Assembly (NCBI GenBank): GCA_030068145.1 | Contig: JAPJBO010000767.1 | Span: forward strand, 45,412-109,411 | DNA length: 64,000 bases | From: Diplonema papillatum | Taxonomy: Eukaryota > Euglenozoa > Diplonemea > Diplonemida > Diplonemidae | Direction: 5' to 3' | Shown: piece after piece, positions 8,079 through 45,566 of the stretch | Numbering within the stretch: the first letter of the stretch is position 1 | Layout of the letters: every line of letters starts with the position of its first letter | Notes under the pieces: generated by a model | What the model saw: only the letters and a program-made list of their open reading frames with translations | Told to the model about the DNA's origin: nothing | The model's database searches: none | Program-made: the position numbers and the translations under genes

Positions 8079-8303
8079 TTAACGAAGCAGCGGGCCGTCA
8101 GCCTCAGTATTAAGGTAGCCATTTTGCTCCTCTGTCTTTTTAGACAGGGTGAAAGATACTTCCATTCTAAATATCCAAGTATGGGACCCAATATGACCGC
8201 AGACACGATCGAAAACGAGTGGGAAACAAAAATGTGCCAAGCAATAGTGACAGGCCGGGCAGTACTCGTTTCCTGCCGAATTGTCGGCGGCATTGGTTAG
8301 CAC
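8079..8303 (-). pseudogene. C-terminal module of family member A, out of frame
   Basis: This stretch encodes ADNSAGNEYCPACHYCLAHF followed by CFPLVFDRVCGH. In copy B the equivalent text, ADHSAGNECRPTCDACVAAC then RFPLVFDRVCSH, is in frame with the rest of the gene. Here it lies in a different frame from 8297-9019. Copy A therefore has a frameshift, a lost exon join or a real earlier stop. The paired cysteines could bind metal, but that is inference. Confidence 0.55.
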
Positions 8304-9019
8304 TGCCTGGCGCTGGTCGTGAACGAGTATGGGTCGTGCACGTATCTTCCAGCGGCGTTGCTTTGCTGCACAGAGCTTGCACTCAGCAGCAGTACAGGTA
8401 CTGCGGTAGAAGTAGGGTTCGTCGGTATCGTCACGTTGAACCTCCCGCTGTTGTCACGTTGAACCTTCCGCGTGTGCTTACTCGAATAGATATGTGGCTT
8501 TAACCCAACCTGCAAGCTGTGCGCGTAGACCTTCGTTCCGCACGGCAGCTGCACTTTTAGACCATCTATAAAAGGGCGTGCGTTGTTGCACAACATTGCG
8601 GCCGGGAGACCGTTGCAACTGATGTCGATACCGGTGCCGGTGCACACACAAGCGAAAGTGGGTCCCCACTGGCCAAGGTAAGTGCACAGGTTGTAAGCAA
8701 CTTGCTTCATTTCTGGCGCCAAAAGACTTCTGTTGCACTCCAGGCTTACGTGCACCGTCGTGGTGCCTTTTCGCTGCTCGTCACTGGTCCAGGTGACCTG
8801 CTGCTTGAACTGCAGGCCGTGCTTCTTTAGTAGTTTTTTTGAAGCGGCTGGCACCTGGTTGTCGGGGTATTGGACGAACACGTTTGATCTTCCCCTCTCG
8901 CCCATCTGATGGCGATGGATAACCGTCGCCCCAAACTGCGATAAAGCACGTGATACCGGGCCGATCGGTCGGTGCCTCGGCAAGCCCCGATACTCGAATA
9001 AAACGGCGGGTTGGTTCAT
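8297..9019 (-). CDS. Unrecognised protein, family member A
   Basis: A 240-residue frame of no family I know, clearly related to the minus-strand genes at 28664-30172 and 44658-45566. The shared order is: an N-terminal region; a strand-helix unit (NVFVQYPDNQVPAASKKLLK) that recalls RNP1 of an RRM fold; a strand (TTVHVSLE); a helix (EMKQVAYNLCTYL); then the most conserved block, GIDISCNGLPAAMLCNNARP through GTKVYAHSLQVG. Near the end, VHDPYSF matches RHDPYSF of member B. There is no signal peptide or membrane segment. The start is chosen because upstream DNA aligns with that of B just beyond this ATG. Relative to B the protein stops early and its last module is out of frame. An RNA-binding role is only suggested by the strand-helix pattern. 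Confidence 0.6.
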   Translation of the reverse strand: MNQPAVLFEYRGLPRHRPIGPVSRALSQFGATVIHRHQMGERGRSNVFVQYPDNQVPAASKKLLKKHGLQFKQQVTWTSDEQRKGTTTVHVSLECNRSLLAPEMKQVAYNLCTYLGQWGPTFACVCTGTGIDISCNGLPAAMLCNNARPFIDGLKVQLPCGTKVYAHSLQVGLKPHIYSSKHTRKVQRDNSGRFNVTIPTNPTSTAVPVLLLSASSVQQSNAAGRYVHDPYSFTTSARQC

Positions 9020-9429
9020 TCTCTTTCAATATACTTTTCTTTTCTGGAACCTGCAAGGAGTTTCGTAGCTGCTACTTTTAAAGCGTTTCGATGTTCAAGA
9101 AGGCCGGCATTCCGGAGTCTCTGGTTGACAGCAGACCCTGGAGGTGGAGGGGTAGTTTACAGCTTATTTTCATGGATGCTAAAACAGCGAGAATTACGAC
9201 AGCCGGACGCTTCTGCTTTTGAGAAGCCAACCTCTCGGCGACGAGGAAAGAGCTGAGCGGGGTGAAGGGGATTTGTAGCGTTATTTGTAGCGTAATTTTA
9301 CGGATTAGAAGGTCGGTGTTTGGTCATGGGAGCGAAACAGGCAGCACGAGCTTTGCCACGTTTCATGCGCCTTCTGTACATGGTGCGGCCAAGCTCACAT
9401 TCATTCCCCTGGAAACCCCATCTTGCTTT

Positions 9430-10010
9430 GTTCCTGCAGAGTTTGCACGTTGAAACCCTCCCAACGGTGTCAACGCATATTGAACGTACCGTGTCCCAAA
9501 CGCTTTTGTGAACGCAACTGGTCATTCCGCCATTTTGTAAGCGTCTGCATACCGGTGGAATCGAAGGCCGTATTTGGACAACAGGCGGGGGCAAACAGGG
9601 GGCAACGTCGTATAGTTCGGCCTCAGAAGCTGGAGTTGCGGGTGTCCCACACGCTCTTCGGGTATGGATTTACACGTGCAGATTGTGGCCACAGATTCTT
9701 TGCATTCTGATCCAAACTAATCCAAATGCCGGATGGATGCGGGCAACTGCACCTTTGTACCACACACTGGGTGCTTCCAGATTACGCGCAATCGGGGGTT
9801 TGAAACATGATGATAAATATAAAAAGTCCGCACCCACGCGGCGTTGACTGTGGCTGGTCTTGAGGGCTGTCTTGATGTTACATTGATCAAACTCACTAAG
9901 CTGAAACTAATCCAAACTATCACGGTCTATCAGGAGGGATGGATTAGCGATTGGCCTACACAAATTTTCCAGATTTTCACCATTTGTGTGTGATTTTTAC
10001 AATTTTTGTG
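9430..10010. other. No gene; stray retroelement 3' tail copies
   Basis: GCAGATTGTGGCCACAGATT at about 9678 is a variant of the retroelement tail seen at 7112. AATCCAAACTATCACGGTCT at about 9908 resembles the sequence after that tail. CGGCCTCAGAAGCTGGAGTT (about 9619) is one end of the MITE found at 24985. No coding region can be supported. Confidence 0.5.
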
Positions 10011-10014
10011 TAAG

Positions 10015-10286
10015 GTACGCATACCCGAACCCCCCCCGCATACCCAAACCCCGCAAACCCCGCAAACCCGCATACCCACCCTAACCCGCAAACCCGCATA
10101 CCCTAACCTCGCAAACCCGCATACCCGAACCCGCAAACCCGCGTACCCTAACCCGCAAACCCGCAAACCCGCAACCCGCATACCCAAACCCGCGTACCCT
10201 AACCCGCGCGTACCCTAACCCCGCATACCCTAACCCGCAAACCCCGCAAACCCCGCAAACCCTAACCCGCAAACCCCGCTTACCCG
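10015..10286 (+). repeat. Interstitial telomere-like tract
   Basis: About 270 bp made almost only of C/A-rich heptamer-like words: CCCTAAC, CCCGCAAA, CCCGCATA and CCCGCGTA. CCCTAA matches common telomere repeats; the CCCGCAAA and CCCGCATA variants are interspersed. The one-strand bias is strong. It could be an old chromosome end, a repaired break, or an unrelated C-rich satellite. Confidence 0.8.
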
Positions 10287-10299
10287 CACGCGATAACGT

Positions 10300-10740
10300 T
10301 TTTCAAATACACACAGCAGATCAAAGAAAGGGGGGAAAGGTGGAAAATGCAGATCAAACGGGAGTAGAATGTGCACACTCGCTTATCCGACTCTTGACTT
10401 ACTATGCCGTGTTCTGAAAGCTGTCGAGGGGCCCCTCCATAGGTTCTCGCATGATTCGTTCGCCTATGTAACACTATCCGTTTGTAGTACGCTTCGCAAT
10501 TGTGTTCTTGCACTCTAGCCGAATGGCGGGTGGCGGATTTCCGCGCTCGGGCGCAAGACACAATTATGCTGCTTTTGCAGTGCAAGCCGAACCCGGTTCG
10601 CGACTTCGGTTGCGGTAAAGTGTTACAAAGTCTTCGGCTTTCAGATCCGGATACGCGTATGCAACAGATAGTTAGAGGTCACTTGAAGGATACCCGTGTG
10701 CAGCGTTCGAAAGAGTTTGCGTATCTGGAGTCTTTTTTTT
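10300..10740 (+). repeat. Dispersed repeat, inverted copy of 54600-55040
   Basis: Read in reverse complement this aligns over about 430 bp with the interior of the fold-back element at 54351-56027. Shared phrases include GAACGAATCATGCGAGAACC (in the 54.9-kb orientation), GGATAGTGTTACA and TATCCGGATCTGAAAG. No convincing protein is encoded by either copy. Here the block stands without the fold-back arms. Confidence 0.75.
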
Positions 10741-10744
10741 TTTT

Positions 10745-11320
10745 CGGGGGGGTGCCCTTTTGACCCTATGTATTTTAATATTTTTTGAGAAGAGAATTTA
10801 CGACAGCCTCGAGGATATTCGTCATTTCCTGCGTTCGTCCAGTGTAATTGTCGTCCAAGTTACTGACCGTGGGAAGGGGTTCCAAGTACATGCTGTTAAG
10901 TCTGTCTGAGTGCGCGATGCAGTTTACCGATAGCCACCGCGTGCCTTCTGTGCCAGGGGTCGGATACGTTTACTTGCTGACCGGTGCTAACGTTGTAGAA
11001 GGCCCACCTATCAGCCTGAGTTCAGCTCCACAAGGTTCGTTTCGTTAAGGCAACTCATGATCACTTCGGTGTGAGGGATTAGTCCTGTTAGAAACTACTT
11101 GTGGGCGCCTGCTCCGTTGCGTGGTCTTCTCTCCGTACAGTGTTCCACATCTGGAAGGTCCTTGCGTTCAGTTCGCGCTTCCTGTGGGCACAAAGACAGT
11201 CGATGACTTCAGGAAGGAATCAGCCATTCTTGCGTGATGTAATGTGGAGTGCAGATTCCGTTTGTTGCCACCTTGGGTTGTCAGCCCAGTCCTCCCCAGT
11301 TCTGGGTTCGGTCCGGGTCC
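10745..11320. other. No gene; inverted third copy of the 3.0-kb repeat
   Basis: 10990-11125 in reverse complement resembles the repeat at 3007-3140 (shared CACACCGAAGTGATCA and GGAGCTGAACTCAGGCTG). The remainder shows nothing that I can support. Confidence 0.5.
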
Positions 11321-11323
11321 CGT

Positions 11324-11690
11324 GAAATTAGGTGAAATTTGTTCCGAAACTGAAAATTTGTTCCGGGAAGTGAAAATTTGTTCCGGAACTGAAAATTTGT
11401 TCCGGGAAGCGAAAATTTGTTCCGGGAAGTGAAAATTTGTTCCGGGGTGAGTTTTTTTTCTGGGATGCTCACTGATCGTGTCAGCCATTCTTAGCCCAGA
11501 AATGAAAAAAAACTCACCCAGGAACAAATTAGTCAGAAAAAAAGCCCACCCCGGAACAAATTTTCACTTCCCGGAACAAATTTTCACTTCCCGGAACAAA
11601 TTTTCACCTCCCGGAACAAATTTTCACCTCCCGGAATAAAAAAGTCGGAAAAAAAGTCGGAAAAAAAGCCACCCCGGAATAAATTAGCCC
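11324..11690 (+). mobile_element. Fold-back element with opposed arrays of a 20-bp unit
   Basis: On the left, about six copies of GAAAATTTGTTCCGGGAAGT run rightward (11328-11448) and end in GGGTGAGTTTTTTTTC. On the right (11502-11690) the reverse-complement units (GGAACAAATTTTCACTTCCC) run back, beginning with the complement of the same inner end, GAAAAAAAACTCACCC. The centre (11455-11500) is only about 45 bp. The arms could fold into a long stem. There is no coding capacity; open frames here merely translate the repeats. The plan matches the larger element at 54351-56027. Confidence 0.8.
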
Positions 11691-11736
11691 CACACCCCCC
11701 CCCCCCTGCAGGGCCTGTGTGCAGCAGGGTGGTGAC

Positions 11737-12545
11737 CGCTCCAAGGTGGTTTCCTCAGCAGCGACCAAGAAAAAAAAATTTTTTTTTGGCCCAAATCCTC
11801 CCAAAAAAGCACTCGAAAAAAAATTGTTTTGACCCACTTTTTCCACCATTTCACCTTAGAGAAACTGGCTACGGTGGATCCCGCAGTGGGTTCCACAACA
11901 GGAGTGCCATTCTTAGACCGTCTTTGTCTTGGCCCCTTCACATATCAACCGCATGGTCATCCCACATCAGAGAAAACAAACTAGAAGAAGAGCAAGCAAT
12001 GTCGGGTCAAGGTCAACCTGTGCCAGCTTCACAGTTGTTCGAAACGTGGGATGCGTTCGTGTTGGCGGCGAAAGAGGCGGTACCACATGTTGTCTGGTGC
12101 GGCGCCAACAACAAGAAGCTTGCGAAGGTGTGGAAGGCAGAGTGGCCTACAAAGGAGGCTGTTGTAGAAGGCCTTGTTGTTGCCTTCCCAGATATGGCAC
12201 TCGACACGAACCCGGCAGCCTCGCAGCTGTTTGCGACAAGTCAGCTCAGTCGGGCAGCTCAGTAGGCCAAACTAGTCCGGCCAAGCCAACCCAGGGAATC
12301 AACCAACCAGCCCGCGAAACCGCAAACCCAAACCCCAAACCCCCAACTGCCCAGCCAACTAGCAGGTCCACAGTCCAAAGTGGCCTATCTATTAAGGTGG
12401 TTTCCACAGCAGCGACCAAGAAAAAAAAATTTTTTTTTTTTGGCCGAAATCCTCCCGAAAAAGCACTCAAAAAAAAAGATTTGACCCACTTTTTCCACCA
12501 TTTCACCTTAGAGAATTTAGCTAAGGTGGGTCCCACAGTACACGG
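11737..12545 (+). repeat. Direct repeats (about 155 bp) flanking a short ORF
   Basis: 11737-11890 and 12390-12545 are direct copies sharing AAGGTGGTTTCC, CAGCAGCGACCAAG, an A/T homopolymer switch, GACCCACTTTTTCCACCATT and TCACCTTAGAGAA. The outer ends carry AAGGTGG or CACCTT, suggesting a small inverted-repeat element present twice. The arrangement also mimics LTRs, but no TG..CA ends or retroelement genes lie between. Confidence 0.7.
11999..12265 (+). CDS. Hypothetical 88-residue ORF between direct repeats
   Basis: Starting at the ATG of MSGQGQPVPASQLFETWDAF, the frame gives a compact, compositionally normal peptide with a predicted helix (AWDAF/VLAAKEAV-type) and KLAKVWKAEWPTKEAVVEGL. It ends within a Gln/Ser-rich tail. 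The frame is open further upstream to 11717, but that part translates the flanking repeat, so the inner ATG is preferred. No family was recognised. It could be an element-encoded peptide or chance. Confidence 0.3.
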   Translation: MSGQGQPVPASQLFETWDAFVLAAKEAVPHVVWCGANNKKLAKVWKAEWPTKEAVVEGLVVAFPDMALDTNPAASQLFATSQLSRAAQ

Positions 12546-12564
12546 TGGACCGGTCAAGGGCTGG

Positions 12565-12720
12565 TGCGGTCAATGACCGCACCACGCTGACCGCAATAAT
12601 GTTGACCGGTACCTTGCGGTCATTGACCGGTAGGGTACTGGTCATTGGCCGCACCCATGCGGTCATTGACCGCACCCATGCGGTCATTGACCGCAACATT
12701 GCGGTCAATAACCAGTATTT
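12565..12720 (+). repeat. Palindrome array, left
   Basis: About six copies of GCGGTCAATGACCGCA or its GCGGTCATTGACCGC form, separated by 5-9 bp. Each unit is itself an inverted repeat, so single strands could form serial cruciforms. Confidence 0.85.
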
Positions 12721-13588
12721 ATGACAGTTTGCAAGGTAAAATAGGCAGCAAAGTATACCCATGCAAGGCCTAATTCTCGAAGTACGCACTTACAACTATA
12801 CGTACCCCCCCCGTGTAAGTGGCTCACCCTTTTTACCCGTGAAAGCGTCTCAAACCGACCTCGCAGAGGAGTGAGACACTTTCACGGGCAGCTGACAGTT
12901 TTTTGATTGGCAACGAGCCTGGTGGTGAAGCTCTCTCAAACGATGCGACGGTGAGCCCGTGCGAAGAAAGACACGGGACGCCACGCACCTTTCCATCGTA
13001 ACAGACGATGTAAAACCCAAGGTTGACTGTCGACCTTTGCAAACTCTTCGATGCAACGAGTGCCTCCAGTCTCGCAAACAGTTGTGTCCGGCGTACACAA
13101 AAATTAGTGTGGCATCCGCTACTATGAGAACAGATGATTTCAACAGGAAGGCAGCCTTTGCAAATAGCACAATATCTCTTCAACGAGAGAAAGTGCGAAC
13201 AAAGGCTGCGAGCGCACAAACGAAGGCAAGTTGTCGACAAAGATTCTACTTGTCGACAGCGGAGTCGCAAACTTTGCCGTCGTCAGCTCGGCAAAGAAGA
13301 TGTGCTGCAGGACATCTCCGCCATGGAGTTTCTTCTGCTCTTCGTATTGTCTGACGAGAACTGCCCAGAAGAAAGGGAAAAGTAAGAACACGTCTTTGTA
13401 ACTGATATCACTAGCGCAAGGGAATGTTGAGTGACTGCCTTAACCCGGGAAACGAGCTTGGGCGAGGTCACCTTCCATCCACCACAACGCCAGTGAGAAA
13501 ATCCCTCACCGTAAGTACAATCGAATCGAGCATCAGCGCCAATCATGGTCAGCGGATTGAGGGAACCGATTACTGACTCGGTTTCCAC

Positions 13589-13910
13589 ATGAGGGAAAAA
13601 CGTTGCTCGCCACGTATCGTCAAAGCGACAAAGAGCACACCCGGAATGCTACCTGAAGCAGCAGAAGACAAGCAACATCAGAGACCCGCAACATCAACAT
13701 TAAAGCCAGCGGCGAGGGTCAAGAAGACGGCACTGACGCGAGCGAAGAAGCGGACGAACTCTGCGTCGGAGCCGACAACAAAACGGCGTAGAAGAGCGCC
13801 CATCGAAGCGCGGCCATCGCCCGAGGGGGCTAAAGAGGCGAAAACATGACACATCACGTGCGAACCGGCGATGCAGATTATCGCTACAGATTCTTGCATG
13901 CTATCCCAAA
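13589..13910 (+). pseudogene. Retroelement C-terminal fragment with 3' tail
   Basis: One frame gives a Lys/Arg-rich stretch (KRTNSASEPTTKRRRRAPIE), and the shifted frame ends in KRRKHDT as in the 7.0-kb copy. The tail GCAGATTATCGCTACAGATT follows at 13871. No Cys/His motif remains. This is the same family as 6490-7190 and 60055-61730, keeping only its end. Confidence 0.55.
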
Positions 13911-13929
13911 TCTCTTTTCGACTTTCGTG

Positions 13930-14600
13930 GTGCATCAACTCCCTGAGTGCAACTGTGAGAGCCCACCAGTCCCGCCCGTCCCTGCGTGCCGGCATCGGAC
14001 CACGCCTCCACGAGGGTGCAGCTTCGAGTCGAAGCCGACCCACCGGTTGTCCGATAGACGCCGGCTCACCCCCGCAGGAACGGAACGATATCGTCCCCCA
14101 CGCGGACTAGCGACTCCCAGCCCAGGGAACCGGTCAGGACCTGGTGCGCCAGGGTCACCATCCGCAAGCACTGGGCTCACCCTGCAGTGCAGTGTGCCCC
14201 ATACCGTCCACGCTCAAATGGCGGTCTCGACGACTTCCAGACGCCGCGCAGAGTCATTTGCGTCAAATCGACCGAGCAAAAGAGGAGGTGCGGCTTCTGC
14301 ACCCACCCTTGCTTCAGCCGGTACCTCTTCGCTGCGAAGTCAAACTCGACTCCCAGGACAACCGGCGTCGAGTTGGGCTCGAAGACTTCTCGTCCTTGCT
14401 CGAGGACAGACTACTCGTCCTTGACCATCATGCGCACCATACGGGCACTGCAGGACCCGGTTGCGCACAGCGCGAAGCGCGCCCGGACAGGCACCGACAA
14501 GGGCCCAGTCGTCGTACCAGACTATCCTGTCGTCAAGCTCCGAGATGACAAAATCAGAGTCCTGCGCAATCATAGAAAACGACCTGCCCAGGCGCCACCG
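13930..14600 (-). pseudogene. Reverse transcriptase-RNase H fragment
   Basis: Reading leftward, RIVWYDDWALVG carries an aromatic-x-Asp-Asp motif like the RT active site (codons at 14505-14519). In the next frame VVLGVEFDFAAKRYRLKQGW fits the RT segment after the active site. Further left, LTGSLGWESLVRVGDDIVPF resembles the RT-RNase H connection of DIRS and LTR elements, and EAWSDAGTQGRAGLVG resembles the first RNase H aspartate motif (Asp codon near 13994). Frameshifts separate these parts, so it is dead. The order and wording suggest a DIRS-like element more than a LINE, which would link it to the tyrosine recombinase at 1-621. That link is inference. Confidence 0.55.
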
Positions 14601-15248
14601 TTACAGAGCTACGCCCCCGTCGGGTCTCCTGGTCCGAATCCCGAAGAAAGCGCCGTCTTCCCGACCTTCGCTGCTGAAGTCGATGTCGATGTTGCGGGTC
14701 CTCGCTCCGCCTTCCTCTTCTTCGTCGTTGATTCTTCTCCTCTCGCCACGGCCGCCCGGTGGTGCCCTTTCCTGCAGCAGCGCGTCACCTACTGCGTGTT
14801 TCTTGCAGCTGTCGCACGTCGGCATCTCATGGTCGAGACATCGGTGGTGATGGTTGCGACAGCATTCCGTTGTCGTCTTACATGTGGTGCACTGCGTCAT
14901 CCGGTGCTCGGCACACATTTTCCGCTCACCCCACTTTTCGTGTCGGGGAATCCCTTCCGGTACGAGCCACGGGTCTCCTCCGACAACGGCCGACTTCTTG
15001 CCCTTCTTCTTCTGCGTGGTGTCGTCGAAGGCCGTCCATCTCGCTGCACGCTCCGCCCTCTCTCTTCCGTACGTCGGGAAAAGGTCCATCCCCCACGCCT
15101 CGCCTTCAGCTGCGTCTCCAAGACTCATGCCTCGACACTTGGGCTGTTGTCCGTGGCTCTCGGAGCAGGGAGCCCCGGGGCTGGTCGGTGCCCGGGGCTC
15201 AGCCCCGGAGCGCTCCAGGAGCCCGACAGGGACGGGCATAGAACACAC
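14601..15248 (-). CDS. Retroelement C-terminal domain with Cys/His clusters
   Basis: A 215-residue frame. Its middle, GEAWGMDLFPTYGRERAERA then ARWTAFDDTTQKKKGKK, matches the minus strand at 60988-60707 (GEAWGMDVFPTYGEERNGRA). It then gives CAEHRMTQCTTCKTTTECCR and HHHRCLDHEMPTCDSCKKHA, three closely spaced CxxH/CxxC groups that probably bind zinc. The end is acidic (INDEEEEGGARTRNIDIDFS). In the 60-kb copy this module follows an RT-type zinc finger, so it is the C-terminal part of a retroelement protein, perhaps for nucleic-acid binding. Here it ends next to an unrelated RT fragment. The fully open complementary frame (14187-15269) is a high-GC shadow. Confidence 0.5.
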   Translation of the reverse strand: MCSMPVPVGLLERSGAEPRAPTSPGAPCSESHGQQPKCRGMSLGDAAEGEAWGMDLFPTYGRERAERAARWTAFDDTTQKKKGKKSAVVGGDPWLVPEGIPRHEKWGERKMCAEHRMTQCTTCKTTTECCRNHHHRCLDHEMPTCDSCKKHAVGDALLQERAPPGGRGERRRINDEEEEGGARTRNIDIDFSSEGREDGAFFGIRTRRPDGGVAL

Positions 15249-15439
15249 TTTCTACTGTTTTCCAGGTAGATCCGTTCCCAGCCGCGAGCGAGGCGACTCC
15301 TCGACTCGTCTGGCAGAAGAGGATAAAGGCCTCCCAGAGCTTGTATTTCCCAGCACCTTTCTTTCTTGTCCTGCTCATCCGCACCCAGTTCACTTTGGTC
15401 GTCAACGCAAACCCGTCAACGCTCTCGTCCTCCGAATCT

Positions 15440-16265
15440 TCATCGACGGGTGAAGATCAGAGCCAAAGGGGACAGCTTTATCGGTCTCAGGGGTGAACAC
15501 CGACGACCCCCTGCAGATGGCGCAGTACATGGCGCAGCTTGGGTGCGGCGGCCATCACTCAGCTGCCACCCGGACCGTGTTAACGAGTTTTCAGATTTTT
15601 CTGGACTCGGTGCCGTCGCCGCCGAAGAACCTGGCAGACCAGATCACTGCCTGGGGAGCTTGGCCGACGGCCGCCGCCCAGGCTTTGATGTGGGCAAGGG
15701 GCGGTCCATCGTCTCCTCGCCGCCGCGGAAAATTGGCCTCATCTCGTAGCCCGTTGGGCTCCCCGGCGTCGGCCGTCCTACTGGGAATTGGAAGAAATAG
15801 GACTTCAGGTCCCGAGCAGTTGTTGGTACTCGTGGCCCGGGAAAAGCAGGAGGTTCGGGCCCGAGATCCCATCGAGGTGCCGCAGCACGATGCGGACAGA
15901 GGAGCGGCAACGAGTCCGCAGGCGTCGGGCCCTACGGTGGCGGTGGTCGCCTGTTGCTGATGGGCGACAATGGGCCTATGGGGTGCCCCTAAACATCATG
16001 GCGTCCGTGCTGGCGGAGAACAAAGCGGCGGCGTGTGTCCTCGACGACCCGCTCAATGAAAGAGCGTGAGTAGGATGATGGCTGTCCTCAGGAGGAGTCG
16101 CCGGACCCACGGCGGACGAAGCCGCCGGGCGTGAAGGAGTTCAGGACGATCTTCGATGCCGTCCATGACCACGGCGCTGCTCCGCAGATTCTGGGCGAGT
16201 TTCTGGCGCTGCTTAGAACCTCGAGTATGCGGGCGTCCAGGGCGCACAAGGTTCTTGACGTATGA
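15440..16265 (+). pseudogene. Gag-like fragment
   Basis: 15496-15710 reads VNTDDPLQMAQYMAQLGCGG and, further on, FQIFLDSVPSPPKNLADQIT then AWGAWPTAAAQALMWARG, a helical text with normal composition. Upstream in another frame is a Ser-rich acidic stretch (TLSSSESSSTGEDQSQRG). 16115-16262 in a third frame reads PPGVKEFRTIFDAVHDHGAA then PQILGEFLALLRTSSMRASR. IFDAVHDHGAAPQ loosely recalls ILDAIPSVANDAQ in the region at 627-2556. I infer an N-terminal gag remnant of the same kind of element, broken by frameshifts. Confidence 0.35.
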
Positions 16266-16635
16266 GGCCATAAATTTGGTGCCTCCGCTCGCGCCCCGAC
16301 TACTTGGCACAGATCGGAGCGCGAGCGGCCAGGCGAGTCCTGGTCAAGACCGCGGCACTCCAACGTCTACAACTTCGAAGCCATCTAAACTTTACACAGG
16401 TGCAGGTGTGACACCCGCAAAATGGACTGCACAGTTCACCCGGTGCTGGAGCACACCGTGTGATTGTGACCGCAGAAATCCTACCAAAAAGCCCTGTATG
16501 TGACACCCAACAGACCTTTTCTCCAACCAGCGTTTCTGACCCCGGAAACGCAGAAGCACGTTTACCAGAAAAGAGAGAGACCGAGACCGGGTGATTTTCA
16601 ACCCAAAAAGGCAGGAATCCTTGTGGCTTACCACA

Positions 16636-16830
16636 GGATGCGTTCAATGACCGCAACATTGCGGTCATTGACCGCAATGTTGCGGTCAATGACCGCAAGG
16701 GTGCGGTCAATGACCGCAAGGGTGCGGTCATTGACCGCAAGGTATGCGGTCAATGACCGCATAACTTTCTCAGCTGACCGGTCAAAAACTGACCGGTCAA
16801 ACATGCGGTCATGACCATGACCGGTCCACC
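16636..16830 (+). repeat. Palindrome array, right
   Basis: About six copies of TGCGGTCAATGACCGCA or TGCGGTCATTGACCGCA with roughly 24-bp spacing and spacers such as AGGG or ACAT, then ACCGGTCAAAAACTGACCGG (an 8-bp inverted repeat) and the element edge. The regular spacing differs from the left array. Confidence 0.85.
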
Positions 16831-16859
16831 GTGTAGGTCCACAGTGGGTTGCACCAGGG

Positions 16860-17940: not shown

Positions 17941-17949
17941 GCGGCCAAC

Positions 17950-27920: not shown

Positions 27921-28663
27921 AAGCGAAAGAACTCCCAACCCCTCGTCGAGCTCAGGAAGTGGTCCTGAGCTCATTACTGCCACACAGAATTCCAGGCCTG
28001 CTGACCATCCATTCGTGCTCGACGAGATACTGATTTAATCGGTTCGATTCATGTATTGAAGAAGCCTGGCTGTTTTTCATCGGACTTCCGGTACGCCTGT
28101 CGTTTTCTGATTGAAAAAGGAACCAAAAAAAAAGAACAGAGAGAGAGAGAGAGGAGTGGATAGAACCCCGACAAGATGGTCCGTAAAACCGGGCAACTTC
28201 TCGAGATCGTTTCCGGAGTGAGGTTCTTACTGAACGAAGCAGCAGGCCGTCAGCCTCAGCTGATTAAGGTAGCGGTTTTGCTTGCTTACCTTTGTAGACT
28301 GCTTTTCTACTTTCCTGAAATCGTGACAAATACTTTCACTCTGATATCCAAGTATGGCACCGCACCGGACACGATTGAAAACAAGTGTGAAACGAGAAGC
28401 CGCCAAACTTGCGTCGCAGGTCCGGCGGTACTCGTTTCCTGCCGAATGGTCGGCAGCTCTAGTTGTGTGGTGTGGGGTGCATTTGCCGCCAAAGGAATGC
28501 GGATTCTGGTGTGAAGCGATTTGGGCTTTTTACGCAATTGCATTCCAAGGCACGCACGCCAATCCCTGCTTGCGAACTGGCAACGTCACAGTTGAACTTG
28601 AACGCGTGCACACTTGAATTCAAAGGCAACTGCAACCAGTAATCCTATTCAACTGGAGAGACT

Positions 28664-30172
28664 CTAAAACTGGCAAAGAAAAAAGACGATTGTAACTAAA
28701 GGGCACAATTCTATTCCGAAACAATTGTATTCAGCCCCTTCCAGTGACTCTTCGGGGCTCTCGGTGGCCGCTTCAACCTCCCATTCGGACAGCACCCTCG
28801 TGGCGGCTTGTGGCAGGTTGTCCACCTCAACCTCCCGTTCGGGCAACACCCTGGGACTTTCGGTGGCGGCTCGCGGCAGGTTGTTCGCTTCAACCTCCCA
28901 TCCGGACGGCACTCTCGGGCTTTCGGTGGCGGCTTGTGGCAGGTTGTCCACCTCAACCTCCCGTTCGGGCAACACCCTGGGACTTTCGGTGGCGGCTCGC
29001 GGCAGGTTGTTCGCTTCAACCTCCCATTCGGACAGCACTCTCGGGCTTTCGGTGGCGGCTTGTGACAAGTTGTCCACCTCAACTTCCCGTTCGGACGATA
29101 TCCTCAGGCTATCGGTGGCTTGTGACACGTTGTCCACCTCAGCTTCCCGTTCGAGCGACCCCCTCAGGCTATCGGCGGCGGCTTGTGGCAGGTTGTTTGC
29201 TTCAACCGCCCATTTGGACGACACCCTCCTACCTCCCGGGCTTTCGGTGGCAGCTCGCGGCAGGTTGTCCGCTTCAATCGCACATGCAGGCGCACATCTA
29301 GGATGAGAACAGACACGATCGAAAACAAGTGGGAAACGACAAGCCGCCACACAAGCGTCACAGGTCGGGCGGCACTCGTTTCCTGCCGAATGGTCGGCGT
29401 CATTGGTTTGCAATGCCAACGAACGGCTAGCGGCATCGGTGTCCGCCGCAAATCTACATCCGGACAAAGTCCCGAACGAGTATGGGTCATGCCGAAAACT
29501 CAGGCACTTGGTTCCTCCGGTGACGTTGCTTTGCAATGCCGATGGAGGTACGTACACGCACGGGCTGTATACCGGTATCCGCCCCACCTGCACCGAGCTT
29601 GCATACAGCTGCAGTCCAGGTACGAGTAGGAACGTTTTGTCGAATGCCGGGCTGTCGATGCTGCAAAGGGCGGCGGCGAGGTTGCGGTCACCGACATCGA
29701 TCTGCAAAGCGTTTGGAGCAGCGACGTACTTATACTCTTTCGGCTCATCGAACTGATGTTTCTTGGCGAACGCAATAATTTTAGGTACCGCCGCTTGCAT
29801 AATTATTTTGCAGGCTGCAACCGAGTCCCACTTCTTCTTCGGTACCGACCCTTCCACGAGGTGGAGTTGAATGACTTCTGATGGCCCCCTGGGGGTTCTC
29901 GTGTAGACTTGGGCCGGGGTTCCCAGGCTGCCTGCGCTCGTTACCCATTCCATGGCTCCCAGCACCCCCAGCAGGATCTTCTGCATGGCCATTTCTTCGC
30001 CTACGACAACAAATCTCGTTGCTGGTATGTCGCCTCCTCGCTTCTTCTTCGGTAGATAGCTCAGGTGGATATCAACCACGCGCGCGCCATGAAAAAAATA
30101 GCTTTCGAAGAAACGCCGCAACTGGGAACTCGGCACCAACGTGTCGGTCACGACGCCCAGTGTGAACGGCAT
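28664..30172 (-). CDS. Unrecognised protein, family member B, with repeat tail
   Basis: A 502-residue frame, the longest intact gene in the window. Residues 1-220 hold the family core: ATRFVVVGEEMAMQKILLGV (strand-helix, RNP1-like), a strand IQLHLVEG, helix CKIIMQAAVPKIIAFAKKHQ, then the signature ALQIDVGDRNLAAALCSIDS with PAFDKTF and GLQLYASSVQVG. LSFRHDPYSFGTLSG and the paired-Cys end module (CRPTCDACVAAC, FPLVFDRVCSH) follow at about residues 230-295. The remaining 200 residues are a 21-residue tandem repeat. There is no signal peptide or membrane segment. The start matches the edge of DNA conserved with copy A. Function unknown; the fold hint favours nucleic-acid binding. The plus-strand open frame over the repeats is a shadow. 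Confidence 0.65.
   Translation of the reverse strand: MPFTLGVVTDTLVPSSQLRRFFESYFFHGARVVDIHLSYLPKKKRGGDIPATRFVVVGEEMAMQKILLGVLGAMEWVTSAGSLGTPAQVYTRTPRGPSEVIQLHLVEGSVPKKKWDSVAACKIIMQAAVPKIIAFAKKHQFDEPKEYKYVAAPNALQIDVGDRNLAAALCSIDSPAFDKTFLLVPGLQLYASSVQVGRIPVYSPCVYVPPSALQSNVTGGTKCLSFRHDPYSFGTLSGCRFAADTDAASRSLALQTNDADHSAGNECRPTCDACVAACRFPLVFDRVCSHPRCAPACAIEADNLPRAATESPGGRRVSSKWAVEANNLPQAAADSLRGSLEREAEVDNVSQATDSLRISSEREVEVDNLSQAATESPRVLSEWEVEANNLPRAATESPRVLPEREVEVDNLPQAATESPRVPSGWEVEANNLPRAATESPRVLPEREVEVDNLPQAATRVLSEWEVEAATESPEESLEGAEYNCFGIELCPLVTIVFFLCQF
28740..29230 (-). repeat. 63-bp coding minisatellite in member B
   Basis: Roughly eight units of 63 bp (start-to-start 28857 to 28920, for example), so the frame is kept. 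Each unit encodes 21 residues close to EVEVDNLPQAATESPRVLPE plus one more. Units alternate between EVEVDNLPQ and EVEANNLPR types, implying pairwise amplification. Confidence 0.85.
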
Positions 30173-34640: not shown

Positions 34641-34644
34641 GATA

Positions 34645-35480: not shown

Positions 35481-35488
35481 GTTCGCAC

Positions 35489-38071: not shown

Positions 38072-38371
38072 TGGGATCTGTCCCAGGTTGTTCCACGACT
38101 ATCATTCCTAAATGCAGCACCCGTTTTTTTGTGGCACAACCCTCGTTCACTCCCTTCCTGCTGTGGCAACTGAACCCATGTGAAGACAACGAACTAACCG
38201 GCCTAATAGGCACCAGGAGAACGTCGAACTAAGCTGCCTTGGGGGAAAAGCCCGCAGCCAGCACCACAAAGCGCAATTTGCGTGGATTGCTTGGCAATTC
38301 GGCTCTGAAAACGCGTCGAAAAGTTTCCCCACTCCAGCTCGAAAATTTGAAATCCTAGAAAAAACCCTGTG

Positions 38372-40200
38372 TACACAAAAAATAAGACGCGTCACCGGCT
38401 AACCACGGTTGAAACCGAATATGATGAGGGTAGCGGATTGTTTTTCGTTGAACGCCTGGACTCTTGGTACAGGGAGCAAGGAAACGCCGTGGATGGCCTG
38501 TGACGCGTTCATATTTCCTCCAACGTTGCATGTTTGGTAAAAAGAAAAAGTTGCTGTAGTTTTTCCGACGCCAAAGGGAGTGTAGACCTGGAACCGGGCT
38601 ACAAAACCACAGAGACAACACTGCGGGTTTGCGACGTTTTTCTCGTTACGAGCGCTATTCGTAAATTAAAAGGTCTACACGGGTTGCAGGTCAACCATAG
38701 CTGATATTTTTCGCAAGCATTTGCTGCGGTAGAGAAGCGTTGGCAGACTACGGTTCGGTCGGCCCTTCCCGACCAGCTCCATTTTGCTGCGTCGCCACAC
38801 TTGCTACCCAGGTGTTGGACTGCGGAACGTGTGCCACTGCGTTCGGGGGTTAACTCGTCCTCAGGCGCCGTCGGTGCACATGCCCTGAACACGTGCGTTT
38901 TTCATCCACTTCGAGGGGGGGTACAAATACATGGCGTGACTGATCTTCCAAAAGAAAACGGAGGCTGTATCTGGCTAAAAAAGCAATCAAGAATATCGAT
39001 CGCACTCCGCTCAGCCGGACGTACGTGTCCGGACTAGTCAAGAATGTGAAGCTGAACAATTTGGGGGGTTGCTCTCAAGTATTTCCTACATAGCAGGTGC
39101 TTACCACCTGCAACGCAGCAAGCAGCGCCTTGGTCGTTCGCCGCCTACCCGAACAATTCGTCCCAGGCTATCACCCTACCAAGCACACCAGATCACCACA
39201 ACCAAAGTCTTCACGCTCCCAGGCTACCACCCTGCCAAGCACACCAGATCACCACAACCAAAGCCTTCACGCTTTGGCTGGTGCCGCCAACCGATGGGAC
39301 GCCCAAGTTTCGCTGGATTACAACGTAATTCAACGACTCCGCCGCCCTCCGTTCTCGTTGCTTCCCCGCCCAGTTTCTTACCGACTCTCGCATGCCGCTG
39401 AACGTTCTTCCGCTTGGTGGCTGTACCCCAGTAGCTTAACCAAGCCTTCTTGTCCTCAGAGACCCTATAGTTACTTGACAATGTGGCGTACCACATCTTC
39501 AGAGGTGACCACGGGCTGCTGTGGATACCAACCACGACTTCGGACATTGACTTGAATAGCGGATGTCAAAATGTGTAGAGCCTTGTTTTTCCGTGAAGAT
39601 CCTTGTCAAACCACGCAGAACGTTGTGGGGGGAAGAGGATGCACGGAAAGAACCGGATCACGGAAAGTAACATTACCGTAGAGCTGAGAGTAGAGACGTT
39701 TCTTATATTATTTTGCTCGCGATTGACCTGTTTTCTTTGGGTCTCATCTGCATCGTGAAGGCGTGTCGAAAGTGGACAAGCATGTTTGTGGTCATAAGTT
39801 TCTGATTCTTTCAGTCTCGGGTGCCCCGCGTATTTGCTCTCCAATATCGACCAATGCCAGTGGGTACGTTTGCTGCTGCCATCCTGAGTGTGCAAGCCGT
39901 TTCTCGTTGGCAAAACGAAGGCAACCTGCAACCAGTCTCGAAATCGAGCACCCGGTGGCAGCCACGATGCGGATGGATGCGCTTCTTTGTTTCCAACGGA
40001 GTTGTCAATCCTCTGTTTGTCTGTAAGTAGGAAGCGGTGTCTTGACGCAACTTTCTTCCACGGCGGTGCGTGTGTTAGAGATTGAGTCGTTGCGATAAAT
40101 TGGCATACAGTTCTCATCTACAGCAGAATACGTGAGAGAAGCAAGGGGAGTCACGGGGGACAACCACGCAAGAAGCACCCGGGGTTTCTGAGGCGTTCCC
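38372..40200. other. No gene; short tandem duplication
   Basis: 39162-39273 holds two copies of a 56-bp unit (CCCAGGCTA(T/C)CACCCT then CCAAGCACACCAGATCACCA). The right part of MITE family 1 (CTCTCAAGTATTTCCTACAT and AGCAGGTGCTTA) is at 39070-39105. No supported coding region. Confidence 0.45.
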
Positions 40201-40226
40201 GGGCAAGGGAACTCCTTCTACTTGGC

Positions 40227-40930
40227 CTAACAAAAAGCAGCTGGGTTGCGCGAAGAAGAGGGGGCAAAAGTAGATCTGAACGAAGTTGGAGCTCGAGAAT
40301 CTCGAGCGATTCATTCCGCACGTTACGTCCTATTACAGTTTCTGGACCGTTTCTTCATCTTTTTGACTTTGGGTTTCGTCGTTCTTTGAAGCTTCGTGCC
40401 GCTCCATCCTGCAATAAGGTCTAACAAAAAAGCAGCTGGGTTGCGCGAAGAAGAGGGGGCAAAAGTAGATCTGAACGAAGTTGGAGCTCGAGAATCTCGA
40501 GCGATTCATTCCGCACGTTAGGTCCTATTACAGTTTCTGGACCGTTTCTTCATCTTTTTGACTTTGGGTTTCGTCGTTCTTTGAAGCTTCGTGCCGCTCC
40601 ATCCTGCAATAAGGTCTAACAAAAAAGCAGCTGGGTTGCGCGAAGAAGAGGGGGCAAAAGTAGATCTGAACGAAGTTGGAGCTCGAGAATCTCGAGCGAT
40701 TCATTCCGCACGTTAGGTCCTATTACAGTTTCTGGACCGTTTCTTCATCTTTTTGACTTTGGGTTTCGTCGTTCTTTGAAGCTTCGTGCCGCTCCATCCT
40801 GCAATAAGGTCTAACAAAAAAGCAGCTGGGTTGCGCGAAGAAGAGGGGGCAAAAGTAGATCTGAACGAAGTTGGAGCTCGAGAATCTCGAGCGATTCATT
40901 CCGCACGTTAGGTCCTATTACAGTTTTCTG
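40227..40930 (+). repeat. 195-bp satellite, nearly four identical copies
   Basis: Units start at 40227, 40421, 40616 and 40811. Differences between complete units are few, so amplification is recent. Each unit has a palindrome CTCGAGAATCTCGAG. The last unit decays after 40920 into A/T-rich sequence, with a 26-bp direct repeat ATTTTCCACGTCCACTGACT near 41030-41065. Confidence 0.92.
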
Positions 40931-41069
40931 GCCCGTTTCTTTTTTTTTTCTCCATCTTTTTGAATTTGGGTTTCGCCGTTTCTTTGAAACTTCGTGCTCC
41001 ATTCATTTCAATAACAATATTTTCCACGTCCACTGACTTTTCTAGTATTTTCCACGTCCACTGACTTTC

Positions 41070-41470
41070 TACTCTGCTGGCGGCCACTTTTTTCACGCTG
41101 CAGGAACTTTTTTGAAACCCCGTACTAGTGCACGAGAAACCTTCCAAATTGCCACAACGATCGACCTTGCAACAACTTTCTCTCAGGCAGTGCAGCAGCT
41201 ATTTCGCTGTGCTTCTGGGTTCGCGTTGTTTGCAGCCCCATTCCCTTCAATTTTCAACCCGAACACATTCTGACACTTAGAAGGTCGGAGGAGGGCTGCA
41301 GTTTCTCCTCAGCATTCCACTTCCTCTTCAGGTCATAGCTTCCCCACAAGTTGAAGAGCGCATCTCTTTCCTCCCCCCCAACCGACGGCTTCGGCGGGCC
41401 AAAGCCGTCGCTTGAACGAGCCCACCCAGGGGTGGTTTGCTCGTTCGTGGCAGGGTTTTTAGCGTTTATT
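41070..41470. other. No gene seen
   Basis: AT-rich to mixed sequence between the satellite and the 41.5-kb repeat. A minus-strand frame (41254 upward) has no recognisable content. Confidence 0.35.
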
Positions 41471-41474
41471 CGTT

Positions 41475-42122
41475 TTTTAGAGTGCAAGTTCACTCCGAGA
41501 TCCGGGATTTGATAGTCCATGGGTGACCATTGTCGTAAAGGTTCCTTTAAGGTATCGTATATTAGTGTGCGTATCGTCACTGGGGGGGGTGTGGGATCTT
41601 TTTCAGGTGAACGCGAGACCTGACTCTGGAAACATCCAATGGAATCCAAACCACGGGTCGGACCAGGGCTTACGCTCCACGTGTGGAACGTGTGGATTTC
41701 CACACGTTCCACACGTGTGGAGATTCCCCCACGTGTGGATCCACAGGTACCACATGTGGATTTTGATTTACTGGTCCTTGGTCCACATGCAGGGGAGTCT
41801 AGGCCCACTAGTGGTCAAAGCCGCACAGCCAGGTGTCGCCAAATCCAGTAGCTACCTAGCGACGCTATTTTTTTTTTTGCCGTCGCACATGAGGGGAAAG
41901 GTTTTTTCCCCCTCGAACCTTAAGCGCCCACATGTGGACCACACGTATTTTCTCTGAGACCGAAAACGGAGCGTAAGCCCTGGGTCGGACCCAACATGGG
42001 TTTGGACGCGCTTCGCCTTTCTAGAGTGCAAGTTCACTTAGGGATCCGGGTTTTTATAGTCTCGGGGTGATTGTCGTAAAGGGTTCCTTTACGGTATCGT
42101 ATGTTGGTGTGCGTATCGTATG
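41475..42122 (+). repeat. Direct repeat pair flanking an inverted-repeat element
   Basis: 41475-41578 and 42022-42122 are direct copies (TAGAGTGCAAGTTCACT, GTCGTAAAGG, TTCCTTTAAGGTATCGTAT, GTGTGCGTATCGT). Between them sits the element at 41645-42006. A third copy is at 23390-23480. Confidence 0.75.
41645..42006 (+). mobile_element. MITE with 40-bp perfect hairpin
   Basis: Ends TCCAAACCACGGGTCGGACC then AGGGCTTACGCTCC, and the inverted right end TCCAAACCCATGTTGGGTCC then GACCCAGGGCTTACGCTCC. At 41678-41717 the arms CACGTGTGGAACGTGTGG and their exact complement flank ATTT. CCACGTGTGG or CCACATGTGG words recur to 41760 and at 41930. Confidence 0.8.
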
Positions 42123-42183
42123 TGTTTCTCAAAGAAGCCGTGCCAAGTCTAAGACTAGCCCAGCCTCCTTGAGTTCTAAACAA

Positions 42184-42915
42184 AAATACTCGAGGGGCTG
42201 CCTGTGCTAACATGCTTTGTAGAAAATACTCAAGAGGCCTACACCGCCGACCCTAAGCGTGGTTGTTGATGAAAAATTGCGACACGTCCACCCGGCGGAA
42301 GTGCATTGCAACAGGAAGCGTGTGCTTGCGGGTTAGACGAAGAAATTGCCCCAGCGACATTGACGCGGACTTTTGGCGCAGTCGGTGGGTTGACGGCAAT
42401 GTCTCTTCGGGAAACCGCGTGTTTTTTGTGCAAGCCCGGCCTCAGAAGTTCCAGAATACCCGAGGGGCCGCGGCACTTGTTTCGACGGAGAGACACAACC
42501 CACCTCCAAAGTGGGGATCTCTTTAGTTGAACGCGTACGCCCTGCACTCTTACTTGTCGTTTTTGATGTACTGTTGCGATAGTGGGGAGTCACCGGCATG
42601 CCGATGAGTACCACAGCCTTTGAGATTTCGCAACTGGCAATCTCCTCAAGTATCCTCTACAAAGCAGGTGCTTATACGAAAAAGAAAACGTCACGTCTGA
42701 TATAGGCAATTTTTGAGGGCGTGAGAGCTCGTCCAAGACTGGCACGACTTTGTGCCCCTTGGGCCTGTTCAACCAGCAACAGCTTCGTCCAAACACTAAC
42801 TTCGCAGTCGAATCTCCTTGGCACAGAAGCGATCGTGTGGGCCACAGCACGCGACCTCCTTCGGGAATGTTGCAAGTGGCGGCCTCCTCGAGTATTTCCT
42901 ACAAAGCGGCTTGTA
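42184..42915 (+). mobile_element. MITE family 1 copies, tandem and rearranged
   Basis: AAAATACTCGAGGGGCTGCC at 42184. The right part with the GATAGTGGGGAGTCACCGGC insertion lies at 42570-42676. A second, diverged right end GGCGGCCTCCTCGAGTATTT then CCTACAAAGCGGCTTGTACA lies at 42880-42920. The block between (42240-42530) has protein-like text (GNVSSGNRVFFVQARPQ) that I cannot assign. Confidence 0.6.
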
Positions 42916-43249
42916 CAAAAAGAAATTCGGGTAGGCTAGTCTGACACTAGTTGTCGTCGGGAAAGAAAAGCGTAGTTTTGTTTTATTCTTTTACTTGTTT
43001 GTTGTCGAAAAAAAAGAAAGGGCTCCGCGTGAGTACCCGAGCTCACTTCATCGAATCTCACAAATCAAATTAAAGCCAAGCCGTGGTGACGTACTTCATT
43101 GGTGCGAAAGCTCTCGAAGAAGAGCGGCGCCGGAACCTGCCTGGGTGTTAGGGACCTGCCGAGAAAGTACGCGGAAGGAAGTGCGGAGTTTGATTTGCTC
43201 CTTTGCTGAACTGAGCTGGGGTCGCCCGCTGGGAAGAGGGTGCCGTGCG

Positions 43250-43473
<224 letters not shown>

Positions 43474-43685
43474 CTGTTGCTGTTGTTGTTGATGGTGTTG
43501 TTGTTGCCGTTGCCCGCTGCCTTGCAAAAAGCTAACCCGCGCCGTCGGTACGTATTTAAACGAAACGCACAGAGGGGGAGAGCCAGCCTTTTGCAAAGGC
43601 TTCGGGCGAGTCCGCGAAACTCTTGTAAATCCTTTTACGCTGAGTGGCATTGTACTTTGCTTGCTTACACCCCTTCACCATGTGC

Positions 43686-43831
43686 ACAGTGGACCGGTCA
43701 TAACCCCACAACCTTCGCCGCAGTCTGAGATCCATTGCCGGTATAAAAGCGCTGTTTGTTTCCCCGCAAAACCTTGTTGTTGGTGCGGTCACTGACCGCA
43801 ACCAACCTGCGACCTGTCCACTGTGCCTGGC
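43686..43831 (+). mobile_element. Short MITE with GCGGTCACTGACCGC palindrome
   Basis: Left end CACAGTGGACCGGTCATAAC; inverted right end GCACAGTGGACAGGTCGCAG. One internal palindrome GTGCGGTCACTGACCGCA. Same design as the edges of the 12.5-16.8 kb block. Confidence 0.7.
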
Positions 43832-43861
43832 AAGGGGATACCAATAGGGGTCGTCATAACC

Positions 43862-44020
43862 GGTTCTGAATCTGGGGATTCAGAACCCGACACGGTAGAT
43901 TCAAGCCTCAGAAGCCATGCCACGCCCCAAAAGCGGGCGCGCTACAAACAAAATGCGTGTAAATGTACATCCAAAAAGCGGGGGTGACACCCGCTTTGTA
44001 ACTCCAGCTTCTGAGGCTGG
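43862..44020 (+). mobile_element. Hairpin followed by MITE family 2
   Basis: 43862-43887 is a perfect 11-bp hairpin (GGTTCTGAATC, loop TGGG). The MITE starts at TCAAGCCTCAGAAGCC (43901) and ends AGCTTCTGAGGCTGG (44020), with internal AAAAGCGGGGGTGACACCCG. Confidence 0.75.
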
Positions 44021-44024
44021 ACGC

Positions 44025-44650
44025 CACCCTTGTATGAAGGGGAGGTCGTCGATTTTCAACCGACGGGTGCTGTTTTCACCGACTCACTATACAGTGGTGC
44101 TACCTCTCTTTTACTTGTGTGGGAGAAGTGGTGGAAAACTTGTGTGTACTTTGAAGACCGCGTGGTGCTTGCACCACTGGCAGCCATATTCTGTTTTTAA
44201 GCCGCGGTTTGTGGAAGAATGTTCTTTGAGTGAGGGGGGGGGCCGCATCATATGTGCCTTTTCTAGCGTTTATTGTGGTTTTAGAGGTTCGGTGTTTTAG
44301 GGTCTCCGGTTGACCATGTTCCGTTCGTTTTCGGGGTGTAACATTTTACATGTTGGACCGGCCTTTTTCTCGTTTTCCCAAGGAGAATCCTTCTCCCCCC
44401 TCCCCGCTCCTTTTTTTTCGCAAAAGAAACGCGCGATGTTGCATCGTTCATTAGTTTGGTTGTTCTCGACACAACAAAGACGAGAGTCACACGGGTAGCG
44501 TTGAGGGAGTGAGGCCGACCGCACAAACGGCGGCAAAACCACTCCCGCAATCCGGAGTGGGAGTCCGGGGTGTCGTTTAATGTTCAGGCAGAACACTGCC
44601 TCTGATGCATTGGTGGCACCAAGTGTTCTTCGAAGAAGATGTTGTGTAGG
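44025..44650. other. No gene; TTTAGAGGTTCGG module
   Basis: TAGCGTTTATTGTGGTTTTA followed by GAGGTTCGGTGTTTTAGG at 44262-44305 is shared with 27310 and 59735. The remainder is unassigned. Confidence 0.45.
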
Positions 44651-44657
44651 ATCCTGC

Positions 44658-45566
44658 CTACAGTACCTCCTCCTCTCTCTCCTCCAGTGAGCCCGGGGTC
44701 ACTTCGGCTTGATTATTCAGGTGCGAAACCTGGAGGGGCTGCCTCTCTGTATTACCGCACCGCGTTCTTCGTCTTGGGCTTCGCTCGCGAGCGGCCCCCT
44801 GGCCCCCCTCCTCTCTCCCCTCTCGGTGGATCTGGGGACGGGGTCCTTTTCTGAGCCAGTCGACCCACTCCTTGTGCTTATACACAGAGTCGTCGAAAAG
44901 AGATAGTACGAATCCACCCCGCACTTTTTTTATCCCCCGCTGGAGCGAGTATGCGAAGACGGTGCCTTGGTCGCCGAATTCACACAGGTACCCGTCGAAT
45001 GCGGGGCTGTCGAGTGAGCAAATCTCGCGGGCTACAAGAGGATCCGCAACGTCTAGCTCGATGCCGGTGGCGGAGAAGACGTATCGGTAGCAACAATGGG
45101 GCGTCTGCGTTAAGCCTCGCTCCGCAATGAAGCGAACGACGCGGTTGCATAGCTGTGCCGCTACTTGGCAGTGGAATTTTTGCCAGTCCGTTCCGGGGCA
45201 ACTCGTTGCAGGGACCATGCGGAAGTGTACCGTGCTTTCCGCAGTCGGCCTCGTTTGCGTCGGCTTGAAGCCCGACTCTTCCACCCGCAGGACCCCTGGT
45301 AATTCCGTCAGAACGGCCCTCGCAGCGTCCCGCTCCTTCTTTGTGCCGAACCCCACGAAAACACGGCTTTCCCCGCACCGGCACTGGCCGGGGAGCTCCG
45401 CGCAGCACGTCTTCGCCGGGCGCTTCTCCAGCACGGTACCCCCGAATGGCTGGGCCTCGCCGCTTATGGTGCGCAGCCTGACGCCGCAGTCCGTGGCGCA
45501 CGCCACGAGGAACGACGGCCCCCTCGCCGGGCGCTCAGGCCTTTCTCCGCGCCCCAAAGCGCGCAT
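44658..45566 (-). CDS. Unrecognised protein, family member C
   Basis: A 302-residue frame related to the genes at 8297-9019 and 28664-30172. Order: N-terminal Arg/Gly-rich part; RVFVGFGTKKERDAARAVLT (RNP1-like strand plus helix); strand STVHFRMVP; helix FHCQVAAQLCNRVVRFIAER; signature GIELDVADPLVAREICSLDS, PAFDGY, then TVFAYSLQRG. The C-terminus is highly basic (KGPRPQIHREGREEGGQGAA, RERSPRRRTRC), unlike the other members, and suits nuclear or nucleic-acid binding. The DPYSF and paired-Cys end module are absent. Flanking DNA shows no match to the 5.3/24.4-kb duplication. Upstream minus-strand text to 45774 may include earlier exons (LRNLGVAVSFLVPQQKGN). GC is higher than in A and B. Function unknown. 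Confidence 0.6.
   Translation of the reverse strand: MRALGRGERPERPARGPSFLVACATDCGVRLRTISGEAQPFGGTVLEKRPAKTCCAELPGQCRCGESRVFVGFGTKKERDAARAVLTELPGVLRVEESGFKPTQTRPTAESTVHFRMVPATSCPGTDWQKFHCQVAAQLCNRVVRFIAERGLTQTPHCCYRYVFSATGIELDVADPLVAREICSLDSPAFDGYLCEFGDQGTVFAYSLQRGIKKVRGGFVLSLFDDSVYKHKEWVDWLRKGPRPQIHREGREEGGQGAARERSPRRRTRCGNTERQPLQVSHLNNQAEVTPGSLEEREEEVL

Follow-up and report, generated by a model that had tools for sequence, protein, structure and literature searches.

Fast-evolving gene families that lie in clusters, such as the PPR genes of the restorer-of-fertility-like type, are marked by recombination, broken copies and diversifying selection. Here we describe a gene family of Diplonema papillatum, three members of which (A, B and C) lie in a 64,000-nucleotide stretch of genomic DNA, called the window below (bases 45412-109411 of contig JAPJBO010000767.1, or C767). 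The family is real and small, with about sixteen gene copies in this genome. It forms clusters, includes recombinant copies and shows an excess of amino-acid replacements in two pairs of close copies. It shares clusters, recombination, broken copies and diversifying selection with the PPR genes, but no PPR or other known repeat was found in it. With RRM_1 (PF00076) proteins it has in common an N-terminal half in the order helix, strand, RNP1-like strand, helix and a weak profile similarity in one branch (called A/C345, after A and the member on contig C345), whereas the family is without a Pfam match and neither its B branch nor its C-terminal half showed similarity. The likeness to MIF4G proteins (eIF4G and relatives) is confined, among the members scanned, to a domain at the C terminus of C345. 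Finally, D. papillatum has repeat-bounded genes (PMC10161547); member B resembles these in having gene-end sequence repeated beside it, but differs in that its 3' segment sits within an open reading frame.

The members in the window are as follows (aa, amino acids):
8297..9019, minus strand: member A, 240 aa, A-type, with the core and a C-terminal HDPYSF motif
8750..9019, minus strand: N-terminal half of A, RRM-like in a comparison using the A/C345-branch profile, suggestive only
29453..30172, minus strand: B-type core, residues 1-240 of member B
44658..45566, minus strand: member C, 302 aa, on its own long branch and without the HxPY motif

The whole open reading frame of B covers 28664-30172 on the minus strand (502 aa). 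A preliminary description, made from the letters of the window, had proposed that these three minus-strand reading frames form one family, and this holds: BLASTP aligned all three pairs over 93-149 columns (E 4e-5 for A-B, 4e-5 for A-C and 2e-8 for B-C), and the same core occurs elsewhere in the genome. One part of the proposed signature, [VL][YF]AxS[LV]QxG, is present in A, B and C; another, G-I-[DE]-[IL], fits A and C but not B, which reads LQIDV. It is extremely improbable that these are chance reading frames in a repeat-rich region. The window does hold 155 open reading frames of at least 100 aa, and one part of B's tail (residues 234-297) scores as non-coding, but homologues exist elsewhere, the substitutions between them are structured by codon, and the cores of A, B and C all score as coding in frame.

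The genome searched was the window's own 271-Mb assembly of 2910 contigs. The family was sought there in six frames, and six members served as queries: A, B, C and three from outside the window. C returned 7 matches, A 12 and B 34. The search scores the best candidates only, so the family count is a lower bound: at least 16 places on 9 contigs carry the core. Four are on C767 (three of them in the window), two each on C263, C1602, C1716 and C2349, and one each on C1786, C2337, C345 and C101; shorter fragments of the family were found on C263 (three) and C627 (one). Ten of the 16 places are open to the usual end and six are broken. The broken ones are the C767 copy outside the window, which is split across two frames and where an intron is possible, the A-type copy on C1716 (internal stops), the B2-type copy on C1716 (a premature stop just beyond the core), both C2349 copies, which are duplicates of the C1716 pair and identical to it over the compared stretches, and the C2337 copy (a frameshift). 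Five of the nine contigs have more than one member, and on each of these the members share one strand. In a tree of 12 members there is an A-type group (A, C263a, C1602a; bootstrap 76), a B-type group (B, C1602b, C2337b; 99), a B2-type group (C263b, C1716b, C1786b; 92) and a C345/C101 pair (100), with C standing alone. The isoelectric point was examined for 12 cores, two of the broken copies and both C2349 duplicates being left out of the 16 places; all 12 are basic (8.4-9.8). So far the family has been seen in this genome only, with no relative in IMG/VR, GTDB genomes, Pfam, NCBIfam, PHROGs or PDB sequences for the queries used. In the same assembly the 37-nt Diplonema spliced-leader exon has 517 exact copies (275 on one strand, 242 on the other), and a reversed control has 0.

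The strongest result comes from two pairs of recent copies, C1602b/C2337b and C1786b/C1716b, which were compared codon by codon. The first pair (207 codons) has 2.5 synonymous differences (Sd) and 34.5 replacement differences (Nd), with a p of 0.003 for this pair alone, and the second (209 codons) has Sd 3.5 and Nd 31.5. Taken together the rounded counts are 66 replacement against 6 synonymous differences, which gives a ratio of replacement to synonymous change per site (pN/pS) of 3.43 and a binomial p of 6e-4. By codon position the differences number 15, 18 and 4 in C1602b/C2337b and 17, 10 and 8 in C1786b/C1716b. The flanks of the two pairs are 99.3-99.5% identical. For C1602b/C2337b the 5' flank has 2 differences in 295 positions, though it consists mostly of tandem repeats and may be homogenised. 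For C1786b/C1716b the flanks have 9 in 1640, compared with 28 in 537 for the coding sequence ahead of the premature stop; the 3' part of this flank count takes in the last coding stretch of C1786b, which holds most of its 8 differences. In two calculations synonymous rates showed no difference from those of the flanks (p 0.61 and 0.18), and replacement rates did differ from them (p 5e-6 and 4e-12). Lost constraint by itself would bring pN/pS near 1 rather than to 3.4. The laboratory strain is described as haploid (PMC10161547), and the pairs would thus be paralogues rather than alleles. For C1602b/C2337b the codon comparison supersedes earlier values (Sd 12.2, Nd 37.8, ratio 0.98), in which the protein alignment used had crossed the frameshift. 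Replacement in excess of both synonymous and flanking change, the sign of diversifying selection, is found in these two B-type pairs and not in an A-type pair or in C263b with its B2 relatives. The B-type copies in the two close pairs carry the signature of proteins under pressure to change their amino acids. As a separate observation, C1602b and C2337b (L009 and L010) are immediately preceded by long tandem repeats, which keep a single frame open for about 150-500 codons.

These results also bear on the idea that the proteins process RNA in the diplonemid mitochondrion, where the genes are in fragments and many of the factors they require are still to be identified. That organelle has many RNA ligation and editing steps, and one third of its candidate proteins are of unknown function (PMC12699882). 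However, no result here indicates the mitochondrion, and broken copies at 6 of 16 places together with positive selection would be unlike what we expect of dedicated factors, which leaves this explanation improbable.

Copies of the family have also been reshuffled at the gene edges, as follows from two junctions. On C1786 the upstream part of an A-type copy, as it stands on C1716 (99.8% over 1218 bp), is joined to the 5' region of a B2 gene, and on C2337 a B-type coding sequence is joined near its stop codon to a B2-type 3' flank (99.4% over 624 bp). The 3' flanks themselves contain a common block:
7725..8017, minus strand: block in the 3' flank of A with a 50-nt inverted repeat seen by eye; C2337b, C1786b and C1716b are each followed by a block of 90% identity to it
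27925..28116, minus strand: stretch downstream of B that matches part of the 3' flank of A (85% identical), without the inverted-repeat part

The block of A is 293 bp long and starts 280 nt beyond the stop codon. It is common to A and C1716b at 90% despite the fact that the two proteins are alike in only 28% of residues. When the 668-base 3' flank of A was used as a query, 9 places were returned including the query, all at family loci, in a search which omits very common words and so leaves the rarity of the block unproven. The block could be either a kept regulatory element or a product of exchange between copies. Its presence in A and three B- or B2-type paralogues, and only at family loci among the nine places, would suit an unlikely alternative in which the proteins are post-transcriptional regulators that bind the 3' untranslated regions (3'-UTRs) of the organism's own mRNAs, as a lineage with polycistronic transcription would be expected to have, and drift by ordinary birth and death with no conflict. 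The genome paper (PMC10161547) puts the median 3'-UTR at about 800 bp and proposes RNA-binding proteins that are as yet unknown, and the deeper pairs of the family have replacement to synonymous rate ratios (dN/dS) of 0.26-0.87 where computable, many of them near saturation; both are in keeping with such regulators. What drift does not predict is the pN/pS of 3.4 in the two closest B-type pairs.

Another possibility is that these are proteins of mobile elements, such as the RRM-bearing first reading frame of a non-LTR (long terminal repeat) retrotransposon, or copies moved by such an element. Repeats abound in the window, a reading frame with an RNase H domain (E 4.6e-7), probably a retroelement remnant, lies at 49732-50655 on the plus strand, and C263b aligns with C1716b in the coding stretch alone (84.6% over 628 bp) and not in the flanks, as moved copies could. 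Set against this are the modest number of family places, at least 16 compared with about 2500 retroelement gene models (PMC10161547), the same-strand clusters, and the position of the RNase H frame on the opposite strand. Neither do close repeats flank a member among the repeats listed (20 of the 27 families of direct repeats together with 15 inverted pairs, at least 60 nt long, smaller ones not having been sought). We therefore regard a mobile-element origin as decidedly unlikely. Other repeats in the window are a recently expanded tandem repeat at 40227-40941 (unit 195 bp, 3.7 copies, 99% alike), an array of about 86 TGT triplets at 43250-43506 (97% matches) and degenerate CCCTAA/CCCGCAAA repeats at 10035-10288, which by eye resemble internal telomere-like sequence. 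A scan of 85 further reading frames of the window gave single matches to ankyrin, hAT dimerisation and zf-RVT models, and an Rfam scan of the window at gathering cut-offs gave 0 matches.

The ends of the three members require some correction of what had been said of them. A had been called truncated, yet it is full length, with HDPYSF at residues 228-233 of 240; several relatives carry similar motifs near their ends (HNPYPDA, HSPYAF, HNPYAS). The tail of C had been called very basic, but its 91 residues hold 18 K/R and 15 D/E, which makes it only mildly basic with a basic patch. The 21-residue repeats reported for B do exist, as a tandem array of 63-bp units, but their translation is uncertain. 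The features of these ends are:
8193..8307, minus strand: last codons of A and start of its 3' flank, matching 28359-28473 at 77/115 nt and 29303-29417 at 94/115 nt
28359..28473, minus strand: copy of this 3'-flank segment downstream of B
28664..29452, minus strand: tail of B past HDPYSF, made of a 3'-flank homologue in another frame, then the 63-bp repeats, then a dispersed-repeat end; translation uncertain
28800..29228, minus strand: 63-bp tandem repeats (21-residue repeats) in the tail of B
29303..29417, minus strand: copy of the 3'-flank segment inside the reading frame of B, in a frame different from that of A

The 269-residue tail of B was found in no other family member. An early part of it is homologous to A's last codons and 3' flank, read in another frame, and residues 234-297 have a non-coding codon score (-0.20). 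The in-frame codon usage of the 63-bp repeats scores as coding (+0.22), which unsettles our early reading of them as plainly non-coding; substitutions between the repeat copies show no clear codon-position bias. The end of the tail matches dispersed places in the genome: 24 of B's 34 matches involve residues 436-502 only, as compared with 8 to the core and 2 to residues 252-292.

For the core, the preliminary description recognised no known domain, and Pfam, NCBIfam, PHROGs and PDB sequences gave no significant match either. The best Pfam models, DUF2505 (E 0.007) and DUF1330 (E 0.015), were both under their cut-offs, and the best NCBIfam (E 0.014) and PHROGs (E 0.025) matches were not significant. 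With the queries used, no relative of the core was found among PDB sequences, IMG/VR or GTDB genomes. The suggestion of an RRM-like fold finds some backing in the N-terminal half of the A/C345 branch, but none in the B branch, the second half or Pfam. Against a profile of 20 RRMs from this genome the A/C345 half gave E 0.0037 and a score of 18.75, reached by 0 of 300 column shuffles and again by 0 of 150, with helix 1, strand 2, the RNP1-like strand 3 and helix 2 aligned in register; this is the best of several subsets tried. Among other N-terminal subsets, the score was reached by 0/100 shuffles for C345 with C101 and 7/100 for the A-type members. The all-member profile was matched by 1/60 and 5/150 shuffles, the B branch by 31/150, and the second half of the core by 38/60 and 63/100, while the whole core had E 0.13. 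By eye each half appears to run strand, helix, strand, strand, helix, strand, which fits a beta-alpha-beta-beta-alpha-beta order in part. The core as an internal duplication was considered and rejected, with the score of one half against the other reached by 24/60 shuffles for all members and 5/100 for the A/C345 subset. The term RRM-like should be taken as a suggestive lead for the N-terminal half.

The C345 member (665 aa) consists of the core, a CxxC...CxxC stretch seen by eye and an in-frame MIF4G domain (PF02854; E 3.2e-7, 30.7 bits, just under the curated cut-off of 30.8), a domain for which A, B, C, C101, C263a, C263b and C1602b gave no match. The end of C345 is 95.5% identical in DNA over 1119 bp to the end of a gene on C200 (L035, L061), the first part of which showed no similarity to C345. 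Either C345 has recently acquired its MIF4G end from the C200 gene or the copying went the other way; the fusion is recent. We have dropped MIF4G as a key to the function of the family, the end being common to the C200 gene and near neutral. Two observations concern the C345 and C101 members. A 203-bp stretch upstream of both (L035 2452-2654 and L036 1155-1355) is 95.6% identical, compared with 41% of residues for their cores, and could be either a common promoter or a dispersed repeat. A piece of the cysteine-rich tail of C101 lies on L042 beside what by eye appear to be 18S ribosomal RNA gene fragments.

Our best explanation of the whole, to which we give a probability of about 0.35, is an RNA-binding family shaped by clustered recombination, positive selection and a changing target. 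Its members would be small basic diplonemid proteins, RRM-like in the N-terminal half and with another alpha/beta unit as the second half. The family may have spread by duplication and unequal recombination within same-strand clusters, and its B-type members would have been driven toward amino-acid change. Their most likely working would be to bind RNA with a target that constantly changes, such as the RNA of transposable elements or viruses or of another rival genome, so that duplicates could serve as variants against it. The RRM-like half and RNA binding are suggested by weak evidence, and from the pattern of change we infer conflict with a changing target.

Several results weigh against this explanation. 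Taken alone, the C1786b/C1716b pair has a p of 0.067 when the full frame is counted and 0.025 for the part ahead of the premature stop, and each of the two fast pairs has one broken partner. The fast pairs have no hot spots in common (3 shared of 205 columns, p 0.75), a result which also rules out mutation hot spots shared by both. The A-type pair C263a/C1602a (Sd 3, Nd 4) shows no acceleration, the MIF4G comparison pair C200/C345 (Sd 6, Nd 19) is near neutral, and dN/dS is 0.79 for C263b with C1716b and 0.87 for C263b with C1786b, which come next in closeness among the B2 pairs. C263b and C1716b did not align in their flanks, from which it follows that the coding part is better kept there. 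As for RNA binding, RRM_1 matched neither A, B and C nor the 12 cores scanned, and yet the same model matched this genome at least 150 times, with 150 of 262 candidates scored. AlphaFold2 models made from the three window sequences only had mean pLDDT of 34.4 and 36.4, too low for a fold. The MIF4G end of C345 says little on function, because it duplicates the end of another gene at 95.5% identity.

A more specific form of the RNA-binding explanation is a lineage-specific arms race, in which RRM-derived proteins of a free-living marine protist would recognise mobile-element or viral RNA and be renewed by recombination in gene clusters and by positive selection. We consider this unlikely. If true, it would amount to a type of RNA-based defence that is not named, nor is such a family, in the titles and abstract openings listed by the literature searches made. 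The positive selection on the B-type copies is the point that most deserves attention. A plausibly RNA-binding family under positive selection provides a short list of genes for testing, and it hints at possible genetic conflict in diplonemids.

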